A stretch of 64,000 bases of DNA from Actinomycetes bacterium. Its GTDB lineage: Bacteria; Actinomycetota; Actinomycetes; S36-B12. Under the pieces are notes generated by a model that did no database searches, had not been told where the DNA came from, and worked only from the letters and a program-made list of their open reading frames with translations. Made by a program: the position numbers and the translations under genes. This document shows positions 31,110-41,373 of this stretch, one piece after another. The first letter of the stretch is position 1, and each line of letters begins with the position of its first letter. The stretch spans positions 1-64,000 of the forward strand of contig JAHECS010000011.1 in assembly GCA_024641635.1 (NCBI GenBank), read 5' to 3'.

Positions 31110-32594
31110 TCAGACGGACGGCTCCGACTCGCGGGCCGCGGCCCAGCGCGCCGTCGCCCTCGAGGCGATCCACGTCCAGCCCGGCTCACGTGCCGGCGGC
31201 TCCTCGGACACGATCGTGAATCCGGCCTTCGCCGCGTTCCCGAAGTCGTCGTCGACGTGCACGACGTTGTCCCAGCCGTGGTTCTGCAGCAGCGAGCTGA
31301 CGACGGACGAGCGGTAGCCCGAACCGCAGTAGATGTAGACGGGAACGTCCTGGGGCAGCTCCCCCATCCGGTCGTGCACCTCGTAGAAGGGCATGAACGT
31401 CGCGCCCTCGATGTGCCCGGCCTCCCACTCGAGGATCTGGCGGGTGTCGACCACGACCGCCGAGGACTCGTCCCTGACCTCGGTCATGAGCTGCTCGAAG
31501 GTGAGCCGGTTCGTGGTCGTGGGCTGCTCGTCGTCGGCCATCCAGAACACCGGCCCGCCCACGGCCTGCGCGGCCGGGCGATCGATGCCGATGCGGACCA
31601 GCTCGCGCTGGGCGGCCTGGACCTGCTCGGTCGTGGCGCCCAGGAGGGTCACCGGGGTACCCCACGGGATCATCCAGCCGAGGTAGTTGACGAACGCGCC
31701 GTCGAGGTCGAAGTTCAGGGAGCCGGCCAGGTGGCCACCGGCGAACATCTCGCGCGAGCGCAGGTCCACCACCCACTCGCCGGCGGCGATACGGCGGCGC
31801 AGCTCGTCGGGCTCGGCGATCGTCGGAAGGGTGAGGTCGACGTCGGCCGGTCCGGCCGCGTTGCCCGGGCCCATATGCGCGTAGTACGCCGGGAACACGT
31901 CGAGGCCCGCGAGGAGCACGTCGACGAAGTCCTGCTCGGCCTGGGTGAGGGCGGGGTTGATCCCCTTCTCCTCGCCGAGGTTCGTCTGCAGGCCGGCGGT
32001 CTGGATGGACGAGCAGAAGGAGCCGAACCCATGAGTGGGGTAGATGGCCGTCTCCTCGGGCAGCTCGTCGACGAGCTTGTGGGCCGAGTGCCACTGGTCG
32101 TGCGCCTGCTTGACGGTGAGGTCCGGCGCGACGAGATCGGGGCGGCCGACGGTCCCGTAGAGGAGCGATCCGCCGGTGAAGACGGCGCCCGGGTGCTCGT
32201 CGCGGCTGACCGCGAACGACACGTGGTGCGGAGTGTGACCCGGTGTGTGCAGGACGGAGACCTCGAAGGTGCCGACGTCGAACACGTCGCCGTCGTGGAC
32301 CGCTACGACGTTGTCCTCGCCGAGGTAGGCCAGGTCGACATCGCCGGGGACGAGGTAACGGGCACCGTGGCGCCGCGCCAGCTCGTAGCCGCCGTTGATG
32401 TAGTCGTTGTGGATGTGCGTCTCGGCGACGTGCGTGACGGTCAGCCCATGCTCGGCGAGGAGGTGCTCCACCCGATCGAGGTCGCGCTGCGGGTCGACCA
32501 CGAGGGCGTGCTCACCGTCGTGGACGACGTAGCTGCGGTCGCCGAGCCCGGTGGTCTCGATGACCAGGACGTGGGGTGCGCTTGTGTGCGGCAT
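31110..32594 (-). CDS. MBL-fold persulfide-dioxygenase-like protein fused to two rhodanese domains (CstB-like)
   Basis: THIHNDY and HTPGHTPHH MBL motifs; first rhodanese lacks Cys (TLLGATTEQ), second has YCGSGYRSS loop. Confidence 0.85.
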   Translation of the reverse strand: MPHTSAPHVLVIETTGLGDRSYVVHDGEHALVVDPQRDLDRVEHLLAEHGLTVTHVAETHIHNDYINGGYELARRHGARYLVPGDVDLAYLGEDNVVAVHDGDVFDVGTFEVSVLHTPGHTPHHVSFAVSRDEHPGAVFTGGSLLYGTVGRPDLVAPDLTVKQAHDQWHSAHKLVDELPEETAIYPTHGFGSFCSSIQTAGLQTNLGEEKGINPALTQAEQDFVDVLLAGLDVFPAYYAHMGPGNAAGPADVDLTLPTIAEPDELRRRIAAGEWVVDLRSREMFAGGHLAGSLNFDLDGAFVNYLGWMIPWGTPVTLLGATTEQVQAAQRELVRIGIDRPAAQAVGGPVFWMADDEQPTTTNRLTFEQLMTEVRDESSAVVVDTRQILEWEAGHIEGATFMPFYEVHDRMGELPQDVPVYIYCGSGYRSSVVSSLLQNHGWDNVVHVDDDFGNAAKAGFTIVSEEPPAREPGWTWIASRATARWAAARESEPSV

Positions 32595-32596
32595 GC

Positions 32597-32908
32597 TCAG
32601 GCTCCTGTCGTGACGGGGAATCCAGCGGAACGCCAGGCGCTGGTCCCGCCGTCCACGCTAATGGCTCGAATGCCGTGTCGGTCGAGGTACGAGGCGGCCT
32701 GGTAGCTGCGGTTGCCGGACTCGCACACCAGCCACACCGGGCCTTCGCCCTGCAGCTCGTCCAGGCGCAGCGGGACGAGGCTCAGCGGGATCCAGTCCGA
32801 GTGCGGGATGTGACCAGAGGCGTACTCGTGCCGCTCCCGGACGTCGACGACGCGCTCGCCCCGGGTCGTGGCGGCGGCAAGTTCAGTGATGTGGGCGGTG
32901 GAAACCAT
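32597..32908 (-). CDS. Single-domain rhodanese
   Basis: VVDVRERHEYASGHIPHSDWIPL and VCESGNRSYQAASYL active-site loop; adjoins CstB-like gene. Confidence 0.9.
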   Translation of the reverse strand: MVSTAHITELAAATTRGERVVDVRERHEYASGHIPHSDWIPLSLVPLRLDELQGEGPVWLVCESGNRSYQAASYLDRHGIRAISVDGGTSAWRSAGFPVTTGA

Positions 32909-32915
32909 AACCGGA

Positions 32916-32934
32916 ACTATACCCCCGGGGGTAT
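32916..32934 (-). promoter_or_regulatory. CsoR/CstR-like operator with overlapping -10 for rhodanese/CstB-like operon
   Basis: ATACCCCCGGGGGTAT perfect palindrome (32919-32934); minus-strand TATAGT (32921-32916) lies 7 nt before the ATG at 32908. Confidence 0.85.
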
Positions 32935-39173: not shown

Positions 39174-39262
39174 CGGCAGCCGGAGGGCGGATCGCCCCGG
39201 AAGGGGGACCTTCGTCACCCCAAGTCACGCACTTCGGCCCCATGGCCGATGCCGACGGTGCC

Positions 39263-39279
39263 ATACCTTGGGGGGTATG
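39263..39279 (+). promoter_or_regulatory. CsoR/CstR-like operator overlapping sqr start codon and predicted -10
   Basis: ATACCTTGGGGGGTAT (39263-39278) matches ATACCCCCGGGGGTAT at 13/16 positions; TACCTT 7 nt before ATG 39277. Confidence 0.75.
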
Positions 39280-40524
39280 AAAAAGCTTCTCGTCCTCGGC
39301 GGGGGAACCGCCGGTTCCATGGCCGCCAACAACCTGCGCCGCAAGCTGTCCGCCAGCGAGTGGGAGATCACCGTCGTCGACGCCGACGACAACCACCGGT
39401 ATCAGCCAGGCTTCCTGTTCATGCCCTTCGGCACCTACAAGCCGAACCAGGTCACCAAGAGCCGGCGCAAGGCACTCAACAAGGACGTGCCGCTCGTCTA
39501 CGGCGAGATCGACAAGGTCCTGCCCGAGGAGAATGCCGTCCTCCTGACCGACGGCCGTCGCCTCGACTACGACATGCTCATCATCGCCACCGGCGTCAGC
39601 CCGCGTCCCGACCAGACCGACGGGATGCAGGGCGACGAGTGGCGCAAGAGCGTCCACGAGTTCTACACCTACGAGGGCGCCGTCGCCCTCGCCCAGGCCC
39701 TGGAGAAGTTCGACGGTGGCCGGCTGGTGATCAACATCGTCGAGATGCCCATCAAGTGCCCGGTCGCCCCCCTCGAGTTCGCCTTCCTCGCCGACTCCTA
39801 CTTCAAGGATCGCGGAATCCGGAACAAGGTCGAGATGACCTACGTGACCCCGCTCCCCGGTGCCTTCACGAAGCCGATCGCGGCGGAGGCCTTCGGCAAC
39901 ACCCTCGAGGAGAAGGGCATTGCTGTCGAGCCCGACTACATGCTCATGGAGGTCGACAACGAGAAGAAGGCCCTCGTCTCGTATGACGAGCGCGAGGTGC
40001 CGTTCGACCTGCTCGTCACGATCCCGCTCAACATGGGCGCCGACTTCGTCGCGCGGTCCGGCCTCGGCAACGAGATCAACCTCGTCCCGGTCGACAAGTT
40101 CACTCAGGTGTCGAAGCAGTACGACAACATCTTCGCCCTGGGCGATGCGAACGACATCCCGGCCTCGAAGGCCGGCTCGGTCGCGCACTTCGAGATCGAC
40201 ATCTTCGTGGAGAACTTCCTCCTGTACATCGCAGGCAAGGAGATGACCCACAAGTTCGACGGCCACGCCAACTGCTTCATCGAGACAGGTGGCGGCAAGG
40301 CCATGCTCATCGACTTCAACTACGACTACGAGCCCCTGCCCGGCAAGTACCCGGTCGCAGGCATCGGCCCGATGAGCCTGCTCAAGCAGACACGGCTCAA
40401 CCACATGGGCAAGCTCGCCTTCAAGTGGGTCTACTGGAACATCCTCATTCCCGGTCGCCCCATGCCTGTACCCGCGCTCATGTCCACGGCCGGAAAGCGC
40501 ACCGACCTCATCGAATCCAAGTAA
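39277..40524 (+). CDS. sqr: Sulfide:quinone oxidoreductase-like FAD-dependent enzyme
   Basis: MKKLLVLGGGTAGSMAANNLRRKL Rossmann motif, YQPGFLFMPFG, LIIATGVSPRPDQ; downstream genes are sulfur-trafficking proteins. Confidence 0.83.
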   Translation: MKKLLVLGGGTAGSMAANNLRRKLSASEWEITVVDADDNHRYQPGFLFMPFGTYKPNQVTKSRRKALNKDVPLVYGEIDKVLPEENAVLLTDGRRLDYDMLIIATGVSPRPDQTDGMQGDEWRKSVHEFYTYEGAVALAQALEKFDGGRLVINIVEMPIKCPVAPLEFAFLADSYFKDRGIRNKVEMTYVTPLPGAFTKPIAAEAFGNTLEEKGIAVEPDYMLMEVDNEKKALVSYDEREVPFDLLVTIPLNMGADFVARSGLGNEINLVPVDKFTQVSKQYDNIFALGDANDIPASKAGSVAHFEIDIFVENFLLYIAGKEMTHKFDGHANCFIETGGGKAMLIDFNYDYEPLPGKYPVAGIGPMSLLKQTRLNHMGKLAFKWVYWNILIPGRPMPVPALMSTAGKRTDLIESK

Positions 40525-40536
40525 GGAGAGCACGAC

Positions 40537-40851
40537 ATGCCTACGACCACAATCAACGGTCGCGACGTCACGGTCGACGACGAGGGCTTCATGACCGTCT
40601 ACGACGAGTGGGACGAGGAGACCGGCAAGTCTCTCGCGGCCGCCATCGGCATCGACATGACCGACGAGCACTGGAAGGTCGTCCGCTTCCTGCGCGAGGA
40701 CTTCAAGGCCCAGGGCGCGACTCCCACGATCCGCCGCGTCTCCACCGCCGGTGGCGTCGACACCAAGCAGCTGTTCACGCTGTTCCCCAAGAAGCCGGCC
40801 AAGAAGATGGCCTACATCGCAGGGCTCCCGAAGCCTGCCGGCTGCGTCTGA
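40537..40851 (+). CDS. TusE/DsrC/DsvC family sulfur relay protein (single conserved Cys)
   Basis: DEEGFMTVYDEWDEE...DEHWKVVRFLREDF...GLPKPAGCV C-terminus typical of the family. Confidence 0.92.
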   Translation: MPTTTINGRDVTVDDEGFMTVYDEWDEETGKSLAAAIGIDMTDEHWKVVRFLREDFKAQGATPTIRRVSTAGGVDTKQLFTLFPKKPAKKMAYIAGLPKPAGCV

Positions 40852-40863
40852 GAGGCATCTGAC

Positions 40864-41373
40864 ATGACCGCAGTACAGGACATGGTCGTCCCGTCGTTCG
40901 ACGACGAGATCGAGACCGATCGCAAGCTGGCCATCATCTGCTCCAAGGGCAGTCTGGACATGGCCTACCCGGGGCTCATCCTGGGCAATGCCGCGCTGGG
41001 TGAGGGCGTCGAACTGCACCTCTTCTTCACCTTCTGGGGCTTCGACATGATCACCAAGGGCCGCATGGAGCACCTGGTGTTCTCCCCCGTGGGCAACCCG
41101 GCCACGCACATCCCCGCGGCCCTCGCGCCGCTGCCGGGCCTGGCCAAGATGGCCACCTCACAGATGCAGAAGGCCATGGAGGAGCTGGAGATCCCGCCGG
41201 TTCCCGAGTTCCTCGACCTCATCAAGGCGTCGGGTGGCCACCTGTGGGCCTGCCGGCTGAGCGCCGACATGAATCACCTCAAGAAGGAGGACCTCTACGA
41301 CGGTGTCGACGACATCATCAACGCGAGCGACTTCATCGAGATGACTGCCGGAGCCCAGCTCCTGTTCATCTGA
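40864..41373 (+). CDS. DsrE/DsrF/DrsH-like (DsrE2-like) sulfur carrier
   Basis: LAIICSKGSLDMAYPGLILGNAALGEGVELHLFFTFWG and GGHLWACRLSADM motifs. Confidence 0.85.
   Translation: MTAVQDMVVPSFDDEIETDRKLAIICSKGSLDMAYPGLILGNAALGEGVELHLFFTFWGFDMITKGRMEHLVFSPVGNPATHIPAALAPLPGLAKMATSQMQKAMEELEIPPVPEFLDLIKASGGHLWACRLSADMNHLKKEDLYDGVDDIINASDFIEMTAGAQLLFI

Follow-up and report, generated by a model that had tools for sequence, protein, structure and literature searches.

In S. coelicolor, ScCsoR binds the sequence ATACCN6GGTAT, as observed by EMSA, and is released from it by polysulfide, and it represses genes for persulfide dioxygenase (pdo), a rhodanese and a sulfite transporter (PMC7533328). Another member of the CsoR family, TTHA1953 of Thermus thermophilus, is a redox-responsive repressor of sulfur oxidation (PMC10318464). 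Separately, the hexamer TANNNT has been described as a signal for leaderless genes in Actinobacteria (PMC3160421). Here we analyzed a stretch of 64,000 nucleotides from the assembly of a freshwater actinomycete (referred to as the window), in which a site of the ScCsoR type, a TANNNT hexamer and the ATG of sqr coincide. We consider it very probable that a CstR-like operator, a -10 hexamer and a leaderless start are superimposed in the 17 bp at 39263-39279 as a single control element, in which repression would be released by persulfide.

Layout of the sqr start

As read in the window, the sqr operator ATACCTTGGGGGGTAT extends from 39263 to 39278 and matches all 10 fixed positions of ATACCN6GGTAT. 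A perfect palindrome, ATACCCCCGGGGGTAT (32919-32934), is found 6,344 bp away, and the two differ at operator positions 6-8 only (CCC to TTG), so the three adjacent changes reported in the original prediction are exact to the base. Its placement of TACCTT was also confirmed by the coordinates: this TANNNT hexamer (39264-39269) is followed by 7 nt and then by the sqr ATG (39277-39279), whose A and T are operator positions 15-16. Because the regulon consensus ATACCCCNNGGGGTAT has a free central dinucleotide, positions 6 and 7 are the only ones at which the sqr site deviates. With up to three mismatches allowed, this consensus had 4 matches in the window against 0.85 expected, and 0 of 100 shuffles reached 4. 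The features are listed in the table.

Table. Predicted control elements and genes at the two loci (window coordinates).
Feature	Position	Strand	Basis
CstR/CsoR-type operator ATACCTTGGGGGGTAT, fused to sqr start codon (predicted)	39263..39278	+	ScCsoR consensus ATACCN6GGTAT (PMC7533328); kept before sqr orthologs
-10 hexamer TACCTT (TANNNT), 7 nt 5' of ATG	39264..39269	+	sequence, genome-wide spacing, fused starts, orthologs
sqr, type III sulfide:quinone reductase-like flavoprotein, 415 aa, proposed leaderless	39277..40524	+	NCBIfam NF049943, 628 bits (cut-off 525)
dsrC-like gene, second in sqr operon	40537..40851	+	PF04358, E 3.8e-33
dsrE-family sulfur-carrier-like gene, third in sqr operon	40864..41373	+	annotation searches
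Conserved upstream element GGGACCTTCGTC ... ACTTCGGCCCC, candidate activator sites	39205..39241	+	alignment of upstream DNA
Symmetric operator ATACCCCCGGGGGTAT of rhodanese / MBL-rhodanese operon (predicted)	32919..32934	.	sequence + genome-wide motif
-10 TATAGT, its TAT = operator end, 7 nt before ATG 32908-32906 (second register)	32916..32921	-	sequence
Rhodanese, proposed leaderless	32594..32908	-	gene and neighbour annotation
Metallo-beta-lactamase-fold + rhodanese protein, persulfide-dioxygenase-like	31110..32594	-	annotation searches

No Shine-Dalgarno sequence was seen near the sqr ATG, and a TANNNT hexamer lies about 12 nt upstream of it, so that sqr has the sequence signature of a leaderless gene; no -35 element was evident. 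Judged by the spacing of TANNNT, leaderless genes are common in this genome. In 464 kb of genome stretches containing 340 coding ORFs, which were analyzed with simple codon-position statistics, TANNNT preceded 63 candidate starts at a spacer of 6 (45 cases) or 7 (18 cases) and about 2 at other spacings. This peak and the missing Shine-Dalgarno sequence support the leaderless layout that had been proposed for sqr. The site at 32919 belongs to a second register, seen at many symmetric sites, in which the terminal TAT of the operator begins a TATNNT hexamer located 5-8 nt before the start codon, and here the operator can remain symmetric.

The SQR protein scored above the cut-off for the NCBIfam selenoprotein subtype of type III SQR, and its gene has no in-frame TGA. 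The element GGGACCTTCGTC ... ACTTCGGCCCC is kept upstream of sqr in several genera (inverted in g10). It is possible that it serves as an activator site, which might be DosR-like; the DosR reading was followed by pattern counts, and one GGGACCTTCGTCC match sits in an apparent hairpin. The genome has 14 copies of the pattern GGGACN4GTCCC and one of its reversed control, and one of the 14 precedes an ORF whose start reads MTDERAYQGRIVVGFDGSE and which looks universal-stress-like by eye.

Fused starts and sqr orthologs in relatives

A start was regarded as fused if the last AT of an operator, plus G, formed the start of a family-verified protein, and the relatives' sites were sorted blind to position 7. 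Such starts were found in six families (SQR, rhodanese lipoprotein, thioredoxin, TDT transporter, membrane protein and methyltransferase). Position 7 was T in 44/44 fused starts compared with 24/248 oriented sites elsewhere, and the right-hand G-run was at least 5 in 43/44 fused starts versus 51/174 oriented symmetric sites. Fisher p-values for these comparisons are descriptive only, because the sites share ancestry and each symmetric site enters the count twice. Loss of the C seems to be compensated by the longer G-run in the other half. A loose coding test gave five apparent exceptions to T7, which look like genes with a start further downstream. The fused layout was also detected outside the order, by a search that required T7, before genes for a rhodanese lipoprotein, CMD-like proteins, thioredoxin and a membrane protein. 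We also considered operators containing GGAGG as embedded ribosome-binding sites; this idea was rejected, as their spacing to starts did not fit. It appears fairly likely that unrelated genes of Nanopelagicales and other actinobacteria have repeatedly gained this self-contained 17-bp module of repressor site, -10 hexamer and start codon, with T7 obligatory and the longer opposite G-run compensating for the broken symmetry.

To follow the element before a single gene, 18 sqr orthologs with readable upstream DNA from four genera were retrieved by protein rather than by motif. The operator was kept in 9/18 and lost in 9/18, and nAnnnT was present at a spacer of 6 or 7 in all 18, including 9/9 eroded cases. 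Full TANNNT occurred in four of the eroded orthologs, the other five having CACCAT, AACCAT or CACGCT. The spacer was 7 in 9/9 orthologs with an intact operator, because the operator geometry demands it, and 6, which is also the more frequent spacing genome-wide, in 6/9 eroded ones. The proposal that the -10 hexamer explains the asymmetry of the operator is supported by the T7 of the fused starts and the persistence of nAnnnT, with one refinement: the changes at positions 6 and 8 are not needed, and both positions vary among the sqr orthologs. By this comparison, the -10 needs only position 7 (plus TA at 2-3) and the flanking changes are incidental.

The ortholog data also bear on where sqr is transcribed and translated from. 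The operator could be real and sqr nevertheless be read from a promoter further upstream, giving a 5' UTR, the repressor blocking elongation or an overlapping promoter and T7 having some other cause. Such an arrangement would suit the conserved element upstream of sqr and also the sqr orthologs of distant genera (g6, g7 and g11), which have no such hexamer and show a Shine-Dalgarno-like leader in 5/6 cases. We regard it as improbable, however, as no Shine-Dalgarno sequence stands near the sqr ATG, the TANNNT signal at 6-7 nt is seen throughout the genome, T7 shows no variation precisely at those sites whose fused ATG serves as the start, and nAnnnT outlasts loss of the operator. There is next to no likelihood that translation begins at the in-frame TTG at 39268, which would place half of the palindrome inside the coding sequence: its counterpart is GTG in G047, G052 and G053 but GTC, GTA or CTT in the operator-keeping orthologs G040, G041, G046, G050 and G015, and the ATG is conserved in all orthologs. 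The superimposed leaderless start is the reading that we prefer.

The sulfur regulon and its candidate repressor

The motif ATACCN4GGGGTAT was found at nine sites in the 3.06 Mb assembly and at none for the reversed control, and most of these sites precede sulfur/thiol genes. Their neighbors include thioredoxin, thioredoxin reductase, rhodaneses (one of them a lipoprotein), the rhodanese / MBL-rhodanese operon and sqr-dsrC-dsrE, as well as a SLAC1-type transporter opposite a small membrane protein, small Cys-rich proteins and a PIG-L-like gene. This nine-site set supports two further parts of the original prediction, namely that sqr and the operon 6.4 kb from it belong to one regulon and, together with the ScCsoR consensus ATACCN6GGTAT (PMC7533328), that the operator is of CsoR/CstR-like type. 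When TACCNNNNGGGTA was searched in this genome, three sites were obtained, no better than the control.

Several observations were made beside these and related sites. The small Cys-rich proteins (MCRQTTCRACKKATWAGCGQH...; L003:1564-1728 and L004, minus strand) recur beside operators in many relatives, and one of them has no Pfam match. The small membrane protein at L010:1527-2036, which is divergent from the SLAC1-type transporter at the operator, contains a CPVCNK motif and had only a sub-threshold Pfam match. Within one genus of the class, several members carry sites of the form ATACCATAGGGGGTATGGTAT (L267, L268, L270 and L272) that are not gene starts; these sites possibly serve another CsoR-family repressor.

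One CsoR-family (PF02583) protein was found in the genome (G000:C11:30318, 77.8 bits versus a cut-off of 22.8). It has C35 and C64, 29 residues apart, and Gly at the position of the CsoR copper-ligand His, as is characteristic of the CstR type; the closest solved chain is 7mq1. Relatives of this CstR-like type also have Gly at the His position (Ala in L173), and a separate His-bearing type is present in other genera. Across the family, CstR-type gene and operator were weakly correlated (44/59 versus 15/26 genomes, hand tally), and no PF02583 gene was seen in some operator-bearing genomes that are nearly complete (e.g., G018 and G028), possibly owing to assembly gaps. Since co-occurrence across the 85 family genomes was too weak, the assignment was based on the palindrome beside the repressor gene: one of the same kind (TACC-N3-12-GGTA) lies close upstream of it in 14/14 loci read. 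We infer from this that G000:C11:30318 acts on the ATACCN4GGGGTAT sites.

A copper-sensing CsoR/RicR-type repressor at the palindrome, with an operon responding to copper and not to sulfur species, seems a slim prospect. An HMA-type copper-chaperone-like gene does come after the repressor gene, and there are weak NCBIfam matches to RicR and FrmR, far under their cut-offs; however, Gly replaces the copper-ligand His in the only CsoR-family protein found, the regulon consists of sulfur/thiol genes, and the same motif is under sulfane-sulfur control in S. coelicolor (PMC7533328). The repressor at these sites is therefore most likely of the CstR (persulfide) type rather than a copper CsoR.

The following sequence of events can be proposed. 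The CstR-like repressor would bind ATACCTTGGGGGGTAT until persulfide or polysulfide modifies its two cysteines, upon which it would leave the DNA. RNA polymerase could then occupy the same bases, and the first transcribed nucleotide would be the operator-supplied A of the ATG or a base adjoining it, giving a leaderless sqr-dsrC-dsrE mRNA. In this way sqr would be expressed together with the other genes of the sulfur regulon, the 32919 operon among them. The conflict between palindrome and promoter would be resolved at a single base, T7, the last base of TANNNT, with the longer G-run in the opposite half.

Comparison with known systems

If this scheme is correct, the locus offers a natural case in which a repressor site, a promoter core and a start codon occupy the same 17 bp and one base shows how selection settles the conflict, and the operator losses in relatives separate the overlapping signals. 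Both a persulfide regulon and the positions of transcription starts would then be predictable from DNA alone in a group that is represented here mainly by metagenome assemblies, and T7 would provide a simple, testable rule for finding leaderless repressed genes.

With the CstR-like ScCsoR circuit the present one shares the 16-bp ATACCN6GGTAT operator, two cysteines 29 residues apart and comparable targets (persulfide dioxygenase, rhodanese and a sulfite transporter in S. coelicolor); one ScCsoR site is near a promoter core, but the S. coelicolor pdo transcript reportedly starts 12 nt before its GTG, so its start codon is not part of the operator (PMC7533328). TTHA1953 differs in its consensus, TACNNTACNNNNGTANNGTA, and a leaderless layout is not mentioned for it (PMC10318464). 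The nickel operon nreAXY of Mesorhizobium, like sqr, combines a CsoR/RcnR-family repressor, NreA, with a leaderless transcript, whose 5' end was mapped to the A of the ATG; however, NreA is a metal sensor and its operator lies between -35 and -10, including neither the -10 nor the start codon (PMC12724321). Repressor operators also overlap the promoters of leaderless transcripts in the AcuR operon of Rhodobacter sphaeroides (PMC3017554) and at Zur sites of Corynebacterium glutamicum (PMC2823685). These repressors belong to other families, and for neither have we seen described a recurrent element that takes in the -10 and the start codon and has a single invariant base out of keeping with the palindrome. 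In the open-access literature we found no operator reported to span the start codon of a leaderless gene, although this does not prove that none exists. Thus, repressors overlapping leaderless promoters are already known (PMC12724321, PMC3017554, PMC2823685), and what is of interest here is the recurrence of the arrangement before at least six kinds of genes in related bacteria, together with its invariant base.
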